From the NCBI GenBank assembly GCA_020852815.1, contig JADZAN010000030.1, positions 1 to 64,000 on the forward strand: a DNA stretch of 64,000 nt, in the 5' to 3' direction. The position numbers and the translations under genes are program-made. Origin of the DNA: Gemmatimonadaceae bacterium. GTDB taxonomy: Bacteria > Gemmatimonadota > Gemmatimonadetes > Gemmatimonadales > Gemmatimonadaceae. The first letter of the stretch is position 1, and each line of letters begins with the position of its first letter. Of the stretch, positions 6,212-63,210 are shown in pieces. Under the pieces are notes generated by a model that made no database searches, was not told where the DNA came from, and saw nothing but the letters and a program-made list of their open reading frames with translations.

Positions 6212-6289
6212 CGGGGTCAAATCGGGGTCAGAGTCAGCGAACCAATTTCTCGCTGACTCTGACCCCAATTTTGCTGACCCCAATTCTGG
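6212..6289. repeat. REP-like palindrome, family A
   Basis: One full inverted repeat (GGGGTCAGAGTCAGCG and its return arm CGCTGACTCTGACCCC), flanked by partial arms GATCGGGGTCAA and GCTGACCCCAATTC. It lies between the signal-peptide gene and the small membrane protein gene. The arms show compensatory changes compared with the copies at 115-225 (AGTCAGCG/CGCTGACT here, AGTCACCG/CGGTGACT there), which supports selection for the hairpin. Confidence 0.8.
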
Positions 6290-6773: not shown

Positions 6774-7040
6774 GGGGTCAGAGTCAGCGAACCAGATTCT
6801 CGGTGACTCTGACCCCAGTTCCGCGGACCACGATTCTGCTCCGCAGGAACGGGGGGAAACTGGTGCCTGGAGAATCGGGCTGATGAACTGAAGTGATTGT
6901 GGTTCAAGCCGTTACCTCTACCGCGCAATTGGGGTCAGAGTCACCGAACCAGATTCTCGCTGACTCTGACCCCGATTCTGCTCGCTGACTCTGACCCCGA
7001 TTCTGACCCGCTGACTCTGACCCCGATTCCGACCCCGATT
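6774..7040. repeat. REP-like palindromes, family A (two clusters)
   Basis: One unit at 6774-6816 and a second at 6931-7040. The latter is followed by a run of partial return arms (GCTGACTCTGACCCCGATTC, repeated three times with small changes), so the array has grown by tandem copying of one arm. The cluster lies just upstream of the esterase gene at 7122. Confidence 0.8.
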
Positions 7041-8323: not shown

Positions 8324-9313
8324 ATGCGAGCACTGCTCCTTCATCATCCCTACACATACCCCCGCTTCGAACAGGACTTCGTCGATCGCGTCGCCGAGCT
8401 GGACGAGTTCGATGTCGTTGCGGCTGACGTGCAGGCGCTGGAGGCGGGGACCCTGGCGGGGGGCGATCGGTCGATCGCACTCTCACACTACGACGCGGTC
8501 ATCGTCTTCGTCGCCTTCCGGCGGCTGCGCACCGCGCCCACGCTGGACTGGGGGGACTTCCTCGGGCTCCGCGTGCTCATGGATCACGACATCATCCAGA
8601 ACTACAGCGACATCTTCGACGCGACGCTGGGCGGAGCATGGCCACCTGTCTTTCATCGGCACCGCTTCGACACCATGGTGACCTCCGGGCTCACGATCCG
8701 CTCGCGCCTTGCAGGTGACGGCATTGCCGCCGACTGGGTGCCCAAGGGGTTCGAGCCGGCGCGCTTTCCCTTGCACACGGGACGGCGTTCCGGCATCGCG
8801 ACATATGGCAGCGCCTACGCCTGCCGACAGGTGGCGGAACGCGCGCTGCGCGACGCGCGCATCCCGCTCAAGCGCCTCGATACCACGCCGTACTTGCAGC
8901 TGGGAGCGAAGCTGAACCGCTTCCTGGGATGCCTGGCGATCTCCTCGGACCTCGAGGTGCCGCCGGAGCAGCGCGCGACGCTGGCGCGCGCCGTGGCGCG
9001 CGACGTCCCAATGCGCCCGGGACTGGAACCGATGGCCAAGCTCTTCGAAGCCGCCGGCGCCGGCTGCTGCCCCATCGCCGATGCGATGGACGACCTGGAG
9101 GCGCTCGGCTTTCGCGACGGCGAGACGTGCCTCACGTTTCGTTCGCACGCCGAACTCGTCGAGAAGGTGCGGGGCGCGGTTGCTGACCCGCGCTCGCTGG
9201 CGGCGATGGGAGCGGCGGCGGCAGCGCTCGCGCGCGCCGAGCACACGTGGTCGCACCGCGCCCGCACGTTGCGCGACGTGATCGCTCGCCGACTGCAACA
9301 CTCCTCGCTGTAG
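8324..9313 (+). CDS. Glycosyltransferase, CgeB-like/GT-B type
   Basis: 329 residues. The N-terminus (MRALLLHHPYTYPRFE) is a first Rossmann strand, followed by helices and YDAVIVFVAFRRLR. The C-terminal half holds PMRPGLEPMAKLFEAAGAGC, the region that in GT-B enzymes of the group-1/CgeB kind binds the sugar nucleotide, then DGETCLTFRSHAELVEKVRG, a typical end of such proteins. It lies 20 bp upstream of an ABC exporter and near other glycosyltransferases, so a role in surface polysaccharide or glycolipid assembly is likely. Confidence 0.75.
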   Translation: MRALLLHHPYTYPRFEQDFVDRVAELDEFDVVAADVQALEAGTLAGGDRSIALSHYDAVIVFVAFRRLRTAPTLDWGDFLGLRVLMDHDIIQNYSDIFDATLGGAWPPVFHRHRFDTMVTSGLTIRSRLAGDGIAADWVPKGFEPARFPLHTGRRSGIATYGSAYACRQVAERALRDARIPLKRLDTTPYLQLGAKLNRFLGCLAISSDLEVPPEQRATLARAVARDVPMRPGLEPMAKLFEAAGAGCCPIADAMDDLEALGFRDGETCLTFRSHAELVEKVRGAVADPRSLAAMGAAAAALARAEHTWSHRARTLRDVIARRLQHSSL

Positions 9314-29624: not shown

Positions 29625-30540
29625 TGTGCGCCTGGCGGCGCGGGGGGGGTTGACAAAAGGGAGGGGGTCGGGGGTTTGGGTGAGGGGGTTGGTGAACTCA
29701 GTCCGGTTTGGCGGGGGTGAAGGAGGGATGGTTGGGCTGTCTTGCGGATCGGGGGGGCAAGAAAGGGGCTGTGTGGAGTGGCGAGGGGACTGTGCGGGAT
29801 GGCGAGGGGGCTGTGTGGGATGGCGAGGGGGCTGTGTGCGGTGGTGAGGGAGGTGTGCGGGCTGGTGAGACCACCGCGGGCTCACGCGAAGGCGCGAAGG
29901 GGGATGGTGAGGGGGCTGTGCGGCGGGGTGAGGGGGCGGCGCTGAGGGGCGAGGGTGCAAAGTGGCGCGGTGAGGAGGCGATGCGGAGTGGTAAGGAGGC
30001 GTTGTTCGCTTGTTAGGCGACTGGGGGGCGTGGTGAGGGAGCTGTGCGGAGTTGCGAGGTGATGATGCGGAGCGGTTAGGCGGCTCTGCGGGATGGTGAG
30101 GGGGCTGAGTGGGGTTGCGAGGGAGCTGCGAGGCGTGGTGAGGAGGCTGTGCGGCGCGGTGAGGGGGCTGTGCGGCGCGGTGAGGGGACTGCGTGGCGTG
30201 GTTCGGGAGCTGCGGGCTTTCGCGAAGGAGCACAGTGAGTTGGCGAGGAGACGATGTGGGTTGGCGAGGGGGCAATGCGGGGTGGTGAGGGGGCGGTGTT
30301 GAATGGTTAGGCGGCAGAGGGGAGTGGCAAGGAAGCGTTGTGGGACTGCGAGGTGATGATGCGGCGTGGTGAGGAGGTGATGCCGACCGGCGAGGGGGGA
30401 CGGTGGTGTGGTGAAGGGGGAGAGTCGGTTTGTCAGTGCGCAGTGCGCGGTTGCAAGGCGGCGATGTGCGGCGGCATGGGAGCGTTGCGCGCTGGCAAGG
30501 CGACGATGCGGAGCGGCGAAGGGTGGTAATGGTGGAGTGC
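29625..30540. repeat. Degenerate ~21-bp G-rich minisatellite
   Basis: The plus strand is a tandem array of units like GATGGCGAGGGGGCTGTGTGG, with periods of 21 or close to it. It is clearest at 29770-29860 and 30080-30200 and decays outwards. The units are read in all frames without a real gene: the long open frames here come only from the composition (few T, no stops). The strand is very G-rich and poor in C, so G-quadruplex formation is possible. It fills the gap between the sigma operon and the gene at 30616. Confidence 0.8.
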
Positions 30541-43030: not shown

Positions 43031-43079
43031 CCGGCCCCCGCACGCTGGTCCCGCGCTTCGGTCGATGAGCCTTCGTGAG

Positions 43080-43585
43080 ACATCGTAGTTCCTCGCCCGC
43101 TCGCCACCGCTCGTGCCGCACGCCAGGACAAATGGGTCCCAGCTTTCGCTGGGAAGGTGGGCGTGGGGGCGGGCGGAGTGCGCGACATCCATCGAGGTCG
43201 ACAACAACCAGTAAGCCGCTGCAACACGGTCGCCGAGCCCGAAACCCGTGCTTCGTGCCTTTGTGCCTTCGTGTGACATCGTGGCTCCTCGCCCGATCGC
43301 CACCGCTCGTGCCGCACGCCAGGACAAATGGGTCCCAGCTTTCGCTGGGAAGGTGGGCGTGGGGGCGGGCGGAGTGCGCGAGATCCATCGAGGTCGACAA
43401 CAACCAGTAAGCCGCTGCAACACGGTCGCCGAGCCCGAAACCCGTGCTTCGTGCCTTCGTGCCTGCGTGCCTTCGTGTGACATCGTGGCTCCTCGCCCGA
43501 TCGCCACCGCTCGTGCCGCACGCCAGTACAAATGGGTCCCAGCTTTCGCTGGGAAGGTGGGCATGGGGGAAGGTGGGCGTGGGGG
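43080..43585. repeat. Tandem ~180-bp repeat with family-B palindrome
   Basis: Nearly three copies of a unit of roughly 180-190 bp. Each contains CTCGCCCGATCGCCACCGCT, then the family-B palindrome GGGTCCCAGCTTTCGCTGGGA, then GGCGGAGTGCGCGA and a tail ending in CGTGCCTTCGTG. Copies start near 43085, 43280 and 43485; the last is shortened. The same palindrome forms arrays at 58.7-59.2 kb and 62.3-63.1 kb. Confidence 0.85.
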
Positions 43586-57924: not shown

Positions 57925-58641
57925 ATGCGTGGACCAATGAGGCAAGCGGTCGGTCGAGGCGTCACCAGGCGCGCGACGTTCCTGCTGGCGGCGGCGACAC
58001 TCCTGCTGCTCGCCCCACGGCGCGCCGAGTCGCAGGAAGGGGGCGAGGCGCGCCGCCGGGGGGGCTTTGGCAACTCGCCGACGTGGTGGCTGTCGACGTC
58101 GGCGGGGTGGCAGTGGAGCGACCAGGTGGGCGACCCGAAGACGAACTCGGTGTGGGACTTCGACTCCAACTGGTCGGCGCGCTTTTCCGCCGAGCGTGAG
58201 GTAGCGCCGCGCACGACCCTGGGGCTCCTGTTCAACTATGCGCGCATTCCGCTACGCATCGTGTCGGGCGGCGGGAGCGCGGGGTGTTCGATTCCCTGCC
58301 TGGGCGACGCGACGCTGGCGACCTATGGGCTGATGGCGCGCTCGGGTGGCGGGCCGGGATTCCAGTTCGCGTACGAGGGATTCATCGGCGCCACGCGCTA
58401 TTCGAACTTCACCATCCACCCTTCGTCGTCGAGCGTTCCGGTGAGCGAGTTCAGCGGGATGACGAACACCGACTTTGCGTGGGCGCTGTCGACGGGGTTC
58501 GGGTATGCGCTGGCGCGCGACTACGAGTTGACGGCGATGTTCGACTACGGGACGTCGGTGCATGAGAAGTCGGGCGATCTCTTCCAGCGTCGGACGACGC
58601 GGCACTATGCGACGCGACTGGGGTTGCGGGTGGGGTTGTAG
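57925..58641 (+). CDS. Outer-membrane beta-barrel-like protein
   Basis: 238 residues with a signal peptide (FLLAAATLLLLAPRRAES). The mature part shows alternating strands rich in Ser/Thr/Gly and aromatic residues: PTWWLSTSAGWQWSDQVGD, TTLGLLFNYARIPLRIVSGG, FQFAYEGFIGATRYSNF, ALSTGFGYALARDYELTAMF and HYATRLGLRVGL, ending in a C-terminal hydrophobic residue as barrels do. Divergent from murQ, so the ~70-bp gap must hold both promoters. Function unknown. Confidence 0.75.
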   Translation: MRGPMRQAVGRGVTRRATFLLAAATLLLLAPRRAESQEGGEARRRGGFGNSPTWWLSTSAGWQWSDQVGDPKTNSVWDFDSNWSARFSAEREVAPRTTLGLLFNYARIPLRIVSGGGSAGCSIPCLGDATLATYGLMARSGGGPGFQFAYEGFIGATRYSNFTIHPSSSSVPVSEFSGMTNTDFAWALSTGFGYALARDYELTAMFDYGTSVHEKSGDLFQRRTTRHYATRLGLRVGL

Positions 58642-58650
58642 CCCAGCGTT

Positions 58651-59192
58651 GCAGCGAGGGCTGGGAGCAGCTGCCGCCCACCGTTCCAGCGAAGGCTGGG
58701 AGCCAGTTGACGGTGCGTTGGACGCTGGCGGGCGCTCGCGGGGGAGAAAGATCGGTCTCACACGAAGCCACGAAGGCACAAAGACGGCCTCACGCCCACC
58801 GTCCCAGCGAAAGTTGGGACCCAGTTGTCGCCCACCGTCCCAGCGAAAGCTGGGACCTATTCGTCGCCCACCGTCCCAGCGAAAGCTGGGACCCAGTTGT
58901 CGCCCACCGTCCCAGCGAAGGCTGCGACCCATTTGTCGCCCACCGTCCCAGCAAAGGCTGGGACCCATCTATCGCCCACCGTCCCAGCAAAGGCTGGGAC
59001 CGATTTGTCGCCCACCGTCCCAGCAAAGGCTGGGACCCATCTATCGCCCACCGTCCCAGCAAAGGCTGGGACCCATTTGTCGCCCACCGTCCCAGCGAAG
59101 GCTGGGACCCATCTATCGCCCACCGTCCCGGCGAAAGCTGGGACCGATTTGTCGCCCACCGTCCCAGCGAAGGCTGGGACCCATTTGTCATG
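58651..59192. repeat. Array of 36-bp palindrome units, family B
   Basis: From about 58793 to 59190 lie 11 direct copies of a 36-bp unit: CCGTCCCAGCGAAAGCTGGG followed by ACCCATTTGTCGCCCA. The palindrome core is CCCAGC-GAAA-GCTGGG. Variation is confined to a few positions (GCGAAA/GCAAAG/GCGAAG in the loop, CCATCTA/CCATTTG in the spacer), with alternating types along the array, a sign of unit-pair duplication. Two more diverged palindromes lie at 58651-58700. Open frames that seem to encode PPSQRKLG or PAKAGTH repeats are only by-products. Confidence 0.9.
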
Positions 59193-59362
59193 GCGTTGTT
59201 CGCGGCAGCTCGCCCCATCTCACACAAGCGCGACCACGGCGCGGAAGACACGGCGCCGGTTCCACGCGCTCGGCGTCGCTCGCGCGTGCGGCGGTGGGAG
59301 GGCAGATTGCGCTCGCGTAGGTTGATCCTGCTCCCCGCCCTTCCGCCATCTCCGATCCCGCG

Positions 59363-61165
59363 ATGACGATGTCTTCTGCTTCTCTGCGCGCCGCGCGCAT
59401 GCTTGCTTCTTCCTGCGCCGCCGTGGGGGTGCTCGCTGCGCTTGCGGCGTGCCGCGCCCCGTCGACGCCGTCGGGGCTCCGGTCGACGGAGCCGGCGGTC
59501 CCGCCTCGTGAGGCGGTGACGTTCCCGGCTGGGTGGCGCTTCAAGGCGGGGGAGCGCGCCGCGTTCGGCGAGCATTTCATGATCGCCTCCAACCAGGTGC
59601 TGGCCTCCGACGCGGGGAACGAGATCATTGCGGCTGGCGGCAACGCGGTGGACGCGGCCGTGGCGGTGGGGTTCGCGCTGACGGTGACGTATCCCGTGGC
59701 GGGGAACATCGGCGGCGGGGGCTTCATGGTGATCCGGATGGCCGACGGGCGCACGGCGAGCATCGACTACCGCGAGGTGGCGCCGTTGGCCGCCAGCCGC
59801 AACATGTACCTCGACGCGAGCGGCAACCCAACGAACGAGAGCATCATCGGCTACAAGGCGTCGGGGGTCCCGGGATCGGTCGCGGGGATGGCGGAGGCGC
59901 TGCGGAAGTACGGGACGCGGACGCTGGCGCAGGTGATGGCGCCGGCCATCCGCCTGGCGCGCGACGGCTTCGTGGTCGACTCGCAGTTCCACAACAGCCT
60001 CAAGGGGAGCAAGGGTTACATCGGGCGCTTTGACGCGAAGGAGGTCTTCTACGGGGCGAACGGCGAGCCACCGGCGATCGGCACGGTCTTCCGGCAGCCG
60101 GCGCTCGCCCGCACGTTGCAGCTGATCGCCGACAAGGGGGCCAATGTCTTCTATCGCGGCGAGGTGGGCGACTCGATCGTCGCCGCCATGCAGCGCGGCG
60201 GCGGGATCATCACGACGCAGGACCTGATGCAGTACAAGGCGCTGTGGCGCACGCCGATCACGAGCACGTATCGCGGCTACACGATGTATTCCATGCCGCC
60301 GGCGTCGTCGGGAGGGATCGTCGTGACGGAGGCGCTCAACATCCTCGAGGCCAAGGTGGCGGCCGCACCACCTTGGGGAACGGCGGCCTATGCCCACTTG
60401 TTAGGCTCGGCGTACCAGCGCGCCTTCATCGACCGCAACAGCAAGCTGGGCGACCCGGCCTTCGTGAGCGTCCCGCTGGCGCAGCTGACGGACAAGGAGT
60501 ACGCCAGGGCGCTGGCGGCGACCATCGACCCCGCGCGGGCGACGCCGACGCCGCCTAACGGGGGGCAGATCGCGGACGGCACGAACACGACGCACTACTC
60601 GGTGGTCGACGACAAGGGGAACGCGGTCGCCACGACGACGACGCTGAACAACGGCTACGGCTCCGCGGTCTACCTCAAGAATGTCGGCTTCTTCATGAAC
60701 GACGAGATGGACGACTTCGCCGCGGCGCCGGGGAAGCCGAACATGTTCGGCCTGGTCCAGGGCGAGGCGAACGCAATCGCACCGGGGAAGCGGATGCTGA
60801 GCGCGATGTCGCCGACCATCGTGCTCGACCCCAGGGGCGAGCTGTACCTCGTCGTTGGGGCCGCGGGCGGCCCGCGCATCATCACGGCGACGTCGCAGGT
60901 GATCCTCAACGTGATCGACCATCGCATGTCGCTCGCGGACGCGATGCGCGCGCCGAGGCTGCATCACCAGGCGTTGCCCGACACGCTGATGATGGAAAGC
61001 AACGGCTTCGCGCCGGAGGTCGAGGCAGCGCTCAAGCGGATGGGGCACGGGATCAAGTACACGCCCGGGCTGGCGAACGTGAACGCGGTGATGCGGGTGA
61101 AGGGCGGGTGGGAGGGGGTGACGGAGCCGCGCATGAGCGGGACGGGGGGGACGAGCGCGCGTTAG
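59363..61165 (+). CDS. ggt: Gamma-glutamyltransferase, lipoprotein
   Basis: 600 residues. Signal with lipobox AALAACRAPS (Cys ~30). Family motifs: ASNQVLASDAGNEIIAAGGN, VDAAVAVGFALTVTYPVAGN, IGGGGFMVIRMADGRTASID, PPASSGGIVVTEALNIL, the autocleavage and catalytic threonine in DGTNTTHYSVVDDKGNAVA, GKRMLSAMSPTIVLDPRGEL and VVGAAGGPRIITATSQVILN. The enzyme self-cleaves before the Thr to a heterodimer and hydrolyses or transfers gamma-glutamyl groups, e.g. of glutathione, outside the cytoplasm. Confidence 0.94.
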   Translation: MTMSSASLRAARMLASSCAAVGVLAALAACRAPSTPSGLRSTEPAVPPREAVTFPAGWRFKAGERAAFGEHFMIASNQVLASDAGNEIIAAGGNAVDAAVAVGFALTVTYPVAGNIGGGGFMVIRMADGRTASIDYREVAPLAASRNMYLDASGNPTNESIIGYKASGVPGSVAGMAEALRKYGTRTLAQVMAPAIRLARDGFVVDSQFHNSLKGSKGYIGRFDAKEVFYGANGEPPAIGTVFRQPALARTLQLIADKGANVFYRGEVGDSIVAAMQRGGGIITTQDLMQYKALWRTPITSTYRGYTMYSMPPASSGGIVVTEALNILEAKVAAAPPWGTAAYAHLLGSAYQRAFIDRNSKLGDPAFVSVPLAQLTDKEYARALAATIDPARATPTPPNGGQIADGTNTTHYSVVDDKGNAVATTTTLNNGYGSAVYLKNVGFFMNDEMDDFAAAPGKPNMFGLVQGEANAIAPGKRMLSAMSPTIVLDPRGELYLVVGAAGGPRIITATSQVILNVIDHRMSLADAMRAPRLHHQALPDTLMMESNGFAPEVEAALKRMGHGIKYTPGLANVNAVMRVKGGWEGVTEPRMSGTGGTSAR

Positions 61166-61937
61166 GCGGTCGGCCGGGGAGGCGAACGGCGGGTGAGCCG
61201 GGGGGAGTAGAAGGCGGACGGACTCGTGAGCGCGCGGGCGGACGCGCGTCACCCGGAATCCCCCACGACTACCTTCGCAGCGCAAGCTGGGATCCATTTG
61301 TCGGCGCATTGCGCGCGGGCGGTGGCGAGCGGGCGAGGAAGAGCGGTGTCACACGAAGATCGGTCTCACGCGACGACGCGAAGACGCGAAGGTGTGAGGC
61401 CGAGAAGCTGCGAGGCCGCGAAGCTGCGGGGACGTGAAGGCGTGGGGACGCGAAGCCGAGGGGATGCGACGCCGAGGGGATGCGAAGCTGCTCGCACCCG
61501 GCGCCCCCACGCCCACCTTCCCGGCGAACGCTGGGATCCAGTTGTCGGCGCATAGCGCGCGGGCGGTGGCGAGCGGGCGACCAAGAGCGGTCTCACACGA
61601 AGACACGAAGTCACGAAGGTGTGAGGCCGCGAGGCTGCGGGGATGCGAAGGCGTGGGGACGCCTGCTCGCGCCGCCGACCAACTCGTAAGCACGCCTAAC
61701 GCTCGCACCCGGCGCCCCCAAGCCCACCTTCCCAGCGAAAGCTGGGATCCATTTGTCGGCGCATTGCGCGCGGGCGGTGGCAACCGGGCGCCCAAGATCG
61801 GTCTCACGCGAAGACACGAAGTCGGAAGGGAGCGTGGTCGCCCACCGGTGCATTCTCGAGGACACTCCGCGCTCTTTTGGACCTGACTGCAACGAAATGA
61901 TGACGCTTCGCGAGGGGGGCGAGATGAGGTTGCCGGC
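61166..61937. repeat. Intergenic with mixed families B and C
   Basis: No gene. Three blocks (starting near 61270, 61520 and 61730) share a layout: half palindrome (AAGCTGGGATCCATTTGTCG), then GCGCATTGCGCGCGGGCGGT, GGCGAGCGGGCG, and finally a family-C stretch (CGGTCTCACGCGAAGACACG). A degenerate run of GCGAAGCYG-like units with GAGGCTGCGGGGATGCGAAG lies at 61375-61500 and 61620-61665. Confidence 0.75.
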
Positions 61938-62299: not shown

Positions 62300-63070
62300 A
62301 CGACCAATGGGTCCCAGCTTTCGCTGGGCAGGTGGGCGGGGGCGCCGGGTTGACCGGGCGCCGCTGTCACCATCGAGGACGACTCGTTTGGCGTCTTGGC
62401 GTGCGGCCGAGTTCTCTCTACCTGTAGCCCCCGCCCGCGCACGACGCATCGACAAATGGGTCCCAGCTTTCGCTGGGAAGGTGGGCGGGGGCGCCGGGTT
62501 GTGGGTCCCAGCTTTCGCTGGGAAGGTGGGCGGGGGCGCCGGGTTGACCGCGCGCCGCTGTCACCATCGGGGACGACTCGCTTGGCGTCTTGGCGTGCGG
62601 CCGAGTTCTCTCTACCTGTAGCTCCCGCCCGCGCACGACGCAGCGACAAATGGGTCCCAGCTTTCGCTGGGAAGGTGGGCGGGGGCGCCGGGTTGTGGAT
62701 CCCAGCTTTCGCTGGGAAGGTGGGCGGGGGCGCCGGGTTGTGGGTCCCAGCTTTCGCCGGGAAGGTGGGCAGGGGCGCCGGGTTGACCGGGCGCCGCTGT
62801 CACCATCGAGGACGACTCGTTTGGCGTCTTGGTGTGCGGCCGAGTTCTCTCTACCTGTAGCTCCCGCCCGCGCACGACGCATCGACAAATGGGTCCCAGC
62901 TTTCGCTGGGAAGGTGGGCGGGGGCGCCGAGTTGTGGGTCCCAGCTTTCGCTGGGAAGGTGGGCGGGGGCGCCGGGTTGTGGATTCCAGCTTTCGCTGGG
63001 AAGGTGGGCGGGGGCGCCGGGTTGTGGATCCCAGCTTTCGCTGGGAAGGTGGGCGGGGGCGCCGAGTTGA
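62300..63070. repeat. Composite array of family-B palindrome and longer unit
   Basis: A long unit of about 180-240 bp is repeated four times. It contains ATGGGTCCCAGCTTTCGCTG, GGCGGGGGCGCCGGGTTG, CCGCTGTCACCATCGAGGAC, CGTTTGGCGTCTTGGCG and TTCTCTCTACCTGTAGCTCC. Within it the short part (palindrome + GGGCGGGGGCGCCGGGTTGTG) is itself repeated 1-4 times, most at the right end. So there are two nested repeat levels. No gene is supported here. Confidence 0.9.
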
Positions 63071-63115: not shown

Positions 63116-63210
63116 ACTCCCGTCTCCCGGACCCCCCAAGCTTTCGCTGGGGCAAGCTTCCCGTCTCCCGTCCCCCGTCCCCCGTCTCCCGTCCCGGGTC
63201 CGCAGTGTCC

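Follow-up and report, generated by a model that had tools for sequence, protein, structure and literature searches.

The closest described systems to the repeat reported here are the CGTC-tagged REPs. In the account of Di Nocera et al. 2013 (PMC3733652), these elements combine an 8- to 9-bp stem, with AT in its first two positions, with a 4- to 5-nt loop, a CCA tail, and a CGTC, TGTC, or CCTC tag outside the stem. They occur mainly as inverted (HH) dimers; HT dimers are negligible and clusters are rare. The same account describes CGTC REPs as lacking a dedicated transposase and leaves open both their mobilization and the ongoing formation of families. Its main text has no word beginning “Gemmatimon,” and we found no literature on palindromic tandem repeats in Gemmatimonadetes or on REPs in Gemmatimonas. 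Also described are the GTAG REPs and REPINs with RAYTs, and in large GTAG clusters the elements form tandem repeats together with flanking DNA whose length varies (PMC3733652).

We analyzed a 64,000-nucleotide stretch (here, the window) of a Gemmatimonadaceae genome, which contains an array of 36-bp units at 58793 to 59189. We conclude that the array is probably a locally amplified, noncoding, hairpin-forming REP-like repeat, akin to the CGTC-tagged REPs found in Proteobacteria and Planctomycetes, that spread in this species and was tandemly duplicated.

Structure of the array

Tandem Repeats Finder (TRF) delimited the array to 58793 to 59189, with a period of 36 bp, 11.0 copies, and 90% matches. 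The unit list gives 11 head-to-tail units on the forward strand, with the consensus CGCCCACCGTCCCAGCGAAGGCTGGGACCCATTTGT and variants. The count of eleven direct 36-bp units in the first-pass annotation was therefore correct, but its start at 58651 was not, as it took in two separate features upstream. One is a degenerate lone hairpin copy with two mismatches (58685 to 58700, forward strand, from the hairpin scan). The other, read directly from the letters, is a palindrome of the form CCCAGC ... GCTGGG with an enlarged loop (58642 to 58665, forward strand), which immediately follows the upstream gene's stop codon and appears to be a decayed hairpin copy. The upstream gene (57925 to 58641, forward strand) encodes a predicted 238-amino-acid protein with no Pfam match. 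The downstream gene, also on the forward strand (59363 to 61165), encodes a gamma-glutamyltranspeptidase (ggt; PF01019, E = 1.4e-160), and its start lies 721 bp from the upstream stop codon in this genome. Searching Rfam at gathering thresholds returned 0 matches.

An array unit folds into an 8-bp stem with a 4-nt loop. DNA folding of two units gave z = -3.6 to -3.95, and RNA folding of 58793 to 59189 predicted strong tandem hairpins (z = -8.9). Every unit had been said to carry CCCAGC-GAAA-GCTGGG; CCCAGCGAAAGCTGGG is exact in 2 of the 11 units, and the other 9 are off by 1 to 2 bases, chiefly in the loop. The alternation of CCATTTG and CCATCTA that had been described for neighboring units is seen in units 4 to 10, but it is absent from units 1 to 3 and from the 10/11 junction. 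This alternation had been taken as a sign of growth by the copying of pairs. Units 5 and 7 are the same across all 36 bp, but over the whole array the excess of lag-2 over lag-1 identity (0.97 bases) was not significant (permutation p = 0.07), and we regard pairwise copying of the units as no more than possible.

Copies in the window and across the genome

Allowing up to two mismatches, we found 29 copies of the hairpin in the window versus 0.08 expected, and 0 of 100 shuffles reached 29. All of the window copies are intergenic, with genes called by a simple codon-usage script. The scan recovered the further copies listed in the first-pass annotation, at 43.1 to 43.6 kb (3 copies), at 62.3 to 63.05 kb (10 copies), and singly at 61.28, 61.52, and 61.73 kb. 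Both groups are on the reverse strand and were defined by TRF and the hairpin scan: 43069 to 43569 comprises 2.5 units of 196 bp with three hairpins, and 62308 to 63069 is a nested array with periods of 45, 194, and 239 bp and ten hairpins. The single copies from the hairpin scan are on the forward strand, at 61276 to 61291 and 61520 to 61535 (two mismatches each) and at 61731 to 61746 (exact). An additional copy at 63136 to 63151 (reverse strand), beside GACGGGA-type heptads, was assigned to class C (see below) based on the hairpin scan and its flanks.

The genome-wide copy map that had been suggested as a check revealed 215 exact copies of CCCAGCRAARGCTGGG in the assembly, divided 99 to 116 between the two strands, the assembly being a 47-contig draft in which copy number may be misassembled. 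Read in stretches fetched around listed copies, one core is common to several flank classes, which we term A to D. With class borders that differ between two classing scripts and with unclassed matches left out of the counts (29 of 265 in the first script and 56 of 323 in the second), class A, the window type, is CGCCCACCTT-core-ATCCATTTGTC plus a loose tail (124 matches in 34 stretches); class B, found within octads, reads AAGCCTGC-core-GACGAGA (99 matches in 59 stretches); class C, which adjoins GACGGGG heptads, reads AAGCTTGC-core-GGG (26 matches in 21 stretches); and class D is a 28- to 29-bp tandem (18 matches in 3 stretches). The basic class A element can be written as CGCCCACCKT-CCCAGCGAAAGCTGGG-AYCCATTTGTC followed by a loosely conserved tail. 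Many class A copies are adjoined by a stretch of TCACACGAAGGCACGAAGG-type octads (in the window, 58745 to 58790 and 43069 to 43520), which may be a further repeat of its own.

The stem is kept over 47 class A copies, and slid controls scored far lower. Covariation support for the stem is thin, with 2 cells changed on both sides, a value that the shuffle control reached in 7 of 500 cases. The consensus fold, for which 47 of the 54 listed class A copies were aligned, yielded a 7-bp hairpin only and no larger structure in those copies.

Relationship to known REP families

We scanned one genome per species (84,980 species) with CCCAGCGAARGCTGGGAYCCATTT and obtained at least 120 stretches with matches. 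The 80 stretches listed lie in Xanthomonadaceae/Lysobacteraceae, Devosia, Undibacterium, two other Gammaproteobacteria MAGs, and one Planctomycetota MAG. Among these listed matches, identity to the elements in Xanthomonadaceae, Devosia, Undibacterium, and the Planctomycetota MAG extends over 24 bp and includes the nonpalindromic tail AYCCATTT. The consensus of the listed related elements, cGTCAT-CCCAGCGAAAGCTGGGAtCCATTT, has the layout of a CGTC-tagged REP (Di Nocera et al. 2013, PMC3733652). Within the same listed set, GTC occupies positions -5 to -3 in 184 of 190 distinct copies, and 93 of 104 neighboring pairs are inverted. A 21-bp version is present in 1 to 194 copies in 23 of the listed related genomes.

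Set against the description of CGTC REPs in PMC3733652, the window element shares the core CCCAGCGAAAGCTGGG (in the fetched copies), a 4-nt loop, here of the GAAA type, and a CCA tail, here AYCCA. Like those elements, it is mostly intergenic, is enriched between convergent genes, and has occasional intragenic units. As to the dedicated transposase that CGTC REPs are described as lacking, the gene checked here was the sole RAYT-type gene in this genome, which carries another palindrome. In the broader sense of a REP as a high-copy palindrome of 20 to 40 bp that is mostly extragenic and biased toward gene 3′ ends, the element is a REP, with a 16-bp hairpin core in a 36-bp unit, 215 copies, the convergent enrichment, and a minority of matches within genes (25 of 290).

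There are also differences from the same description. Positions -6 to -1 of class A read CACCTT or CACCGT where CGTC REPs have CGTCAT, so that none of the tags CGTC, TGTC, or CCTC stands outside the stem; the CGTC string in the array overlaps the stem. The class A stem is 7 to 8 bp, and that of the array has GTCCCAGC where CGTC REPs begin with AT. Adjacent class A copies are arranged head to tail, 76 of 77 being on the same strand and 1 on the opposite strand, in contrast to the mainly inverted dimers of CGTC REPs. Unlike CGTC REPs, the element is confined to one species in our phylum sample, plus one lone core match elsewhere. Because the core, loop, and tail are common to both but the tag, the stem start, and the orientation of neighbors differ, we describe the window element as CGTC-like rather than as a CGTC REP. 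Its core and tail nevertheless suggest descent from CGTC REPs.

The element also resembles GTAG REPs and REPINs in being a high-copy extragenic palindrome (PMC3733652, PMC3116915, and PMC2817692), and its tandem units with variable flanking DNA recall the large GTAG clusters described in PMC3733652. It differs from GTAG REPs and REPINs with RAYTs, as described in these sources, in that the GTAG tag and inverted pairs are absent and the RAYT-type gene has another palindrome.

Comparison with congeners

Both sequenced congeners (G001 and G002) have 0 copies of the hairpin core, and among the 394 other phylum genomes just one contains CCCAGCRAARGCTGGG, a lone copy that lacks the class A tail. The upstream gene is likewise next to ggt in both congeners, across a short gap with neither the palindrome nor the array; the congeners are about 65 to 85% identical to this genome at the locus, a divergence at which the ends of the insertion are not mappable to the base. 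Target-site duplications are likewise beyond resolution, since the intergenic DNA is too diverged from that of the congeners. The distance from ggt to the next gene is 2.05 kb here versus about 0.1 kb in G001, and an interval on L124 with seven copies measures about 1.76 kb here versus 0.16 kb in G001.

Each of the three genomes from the genus has class B-type octads (296, 313, and 189 matches), as against 0 in 38 others; these octads are a genus feature. From nine orthologous octad or class C sites, we counted as evidence the three that align cleanly (L294/L032, L302/L105, and L303/L080), each with octads alone in the congener and octads plus the hairpin here. The uncounted sites had poor alignments or longer indels or belonged to class C (L305/L050). 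We rejected a class B candidate for an orthologous empty site, L093:9274/9304, because this genome has ~3.5 kb of other DNA there. Taken together, the sites lead us to read the insertions as probable gains in this species. Since the element is absent across the wider sample, its loss from both congeners is less likely.

Genus-specific octad arrays of the form (GACGAGAR)n were seen at L093:9325-9362 and at many places in G000, G001, and G002, and several of them begin directly at a stop codon or immediately ahead of a start codon. At L093:10312-11003, two class C hairpins, each just 5′ of an ATG, bracket an extra gene of ~0.6 kb that is missing between the same neighbors in G001 and G002.

Gene context and alternative explanations

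Convergent genes flank 10 of 22 class A sites, versus 31 of 375 intervals without a copy (Fisher p = 1.2e-5); for class B, the figure is 17 of 67 sites versus the same 31 of 375. The first-pass statement that the repeat is always between genes describes the window well but not the genome, where 25 of 290 matches fall inside called genes (18 of these 25 are loosely matching and unclassed) and two units are in frame in a gene for an FAD-linked oxidase. The convergent enrichment of both classes and the strong tandem RNA hairpins are what would be expected of a functional terminator or 3′-end stabilizer maintained by selection, in which case the array would be a reinforced form. We consider such a role unlikely, given that the region from 58500 to 59500 has 0 sites resembling an intrinsic terminator (a hairpin plus a T tract) where shuffles expect 0.9, that the congeners manage without the hairpin, and that orientation relative to codirectional genes is even (22 same and 23 opposite for class B; 4 same, 3 opposite, and 1 mixed for class A). 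The placement is consistent with insertions that are tolerated near gene 3′ ends and whose hairpins act, at most, in a general way in the RNA; changes in expression, if any, are probably a side effect of hairpins being transcribed there. It is highly improbable that the 36-bp unit, at 12 codons, instead encodes a translated repeat protein (the SPTVPAKAGTHL repeat peptide). Several frames are open through the array, and the oxidase carries its two units in frame, but open frames are expected of any unit that contains no stop codon and spans a whole number of codons. Further, variation among units is not limited to one codon position in any frame, and many other arrays have periods that are not multiples of three (28, 29, 31, 38, 79, 83, 152, 194, and 196). 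The first-pass annotation had named a translated repeat protein as evidence against its own reading; the array does not bear this out, although one unit pair elsewhere lies inside an ORF. The 36-bp periodicity and palindromic core are reminiscent of a CRISPR array, an identification that we rejected and hold to be exceedingly improbable, as the full 36-bp period repeats and there are no unique spacers.

A different kind of explanation concerns movement: the genome's REP-associated tyrosine transposase (RAYT) might copy the palindrome in trans, as for a RAYT-mobilized REP or REPIN. The genome does encode one RAYT-type protein (PF01797; its NF047646 score of 77.8 bits is just below the cutoff of 80), and the sole point for a link is that both congeners lack a RAYT match as well as the hairpin. 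However, we detected no copy of the hairpin core in the 17 kb around the gene, which is bracketed by a different palindrome, GGGGTCAGAGTCASCGA (short form, GGGGTCAG). Homologs are present in 11 other genomes of the 79 family genomes examined, and none of the 11 has the hairpin; the GTAG tag and inverted pairs expected of such a system are absent as well. Based on the palindrome found at the gene flanks, we set aside mobilization by this protein as quite unlikely.

The palindrome of the RAYT-type gene forms a family of its own, with 32 matches to GGGGTCAGAGTCASCGA in the 790 kb of genome examined. Repeats of the form GGGGTCAGAGTCASCGA...TCGSTGACTCTGACCCC flank the gene at L125:8323-8401 and 9228-9280 and recur in the window at 140 to 225, 6224 to 6266, 6774 to 6816, and 6931 to 7024 (11 window matches versus 0.05 expected). 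This family fits the GGGGWSAS ends given for RAYT relatives in PMC3733652.

The FAD-linked oxidase (PF01565 and PF02913; L036:2230-4122, reverse strand) has its two class A units 99 bp apart, in a stretch of ~80 residues that is missing from both congeners. Such an in-frame insertion in a conserved gene is similar to those of Rickettsia palindromic elements and intragenic REPs, as presented in PMC3733652. Unlike the Rickettsia elements as presented there, comparison with congeners identified one clear in-frame insertion here, and most copies are intergenic. Separately, one ORF at L038:3966-5807 (forward strand) links AHSA1 and glyoxalase domains to an alpha/beta hydrolase via two class B units, and is possibly two genes fused by insertion.

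Origin and growth of the arrays

Hairpin arrays in this genome have periods of 22, 28, 29, 30, 31, 36, 38, 45, 79, 83, 105, 136, 152, and 179 to 239 bp, among others. In the window, the period is 36 bp at the array, 45 and 194 to 239 bp at 62.3 to 63.1 kb, and 196 bp at 43.1 kb. An array that moved whole would carry one unit with it; because unit length varies by site, we infer that the arrays grew in place. Under our preferred reading of a CGTC-like repeat that was amplified locally, class A would have arisen and spread in this species after its split from the two sequenced congeners. Once inserted, the hairpin would have undergone rounds of tandem duplication together with more or less of the adjacent DNA; the simplest route would be replication slippage or unequal exchange at the strong hairpin (8-bp stem and 4-nt loop). 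Such duplication would produce head-to-tail arrays with a unit length set locally, and slippage would be the amplifying step. The suggestion that the array belongs to an expanding REP element is largely borne out by the >200 copies, their mostly intergenic location, the convergent enrichment, and the array-free orthologous sites; it needs qualification in that a CGTC-type tag and inverted pairs are absent and insertions are not strictly extragenic.

More tentatively, a CGTC-type hairpin could have entered one species, possibly from Proteobacteria, and could be spreading there without a RAYT. In this scenario, which is possible but rather doubtful, the hairpin would prefer to nest in heptad or octad microsatellites that were already there and that repeat CGTC on the complementary strand, would gain new flanks around its one core (classes A to D), and would seed tandem duplication on landing. 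If true, the genome would represent a recent natural experiment on the movement of transposase-less REPs. With 215 copies in one species and 0 in both congeners, array-free orthologous sites open to comparison between strains, a single core in four kinds of flank, and array units that are locally set, the case bears on the questions of mobilization and continuing family formation raised for CGTC REPs in PMC3733652.

The window also includes imperfect 21-bp tandem repeats at 29765 to 30510 (5, 14, and more copies), which are without the hairpin. In practical terms, the hairpin repeat bears on contig ends and gene calls in this genome: several copies are close to a contig end, at distances of no more than a few hundred bases, and the genome has spurious ORFs that bear the repeat.
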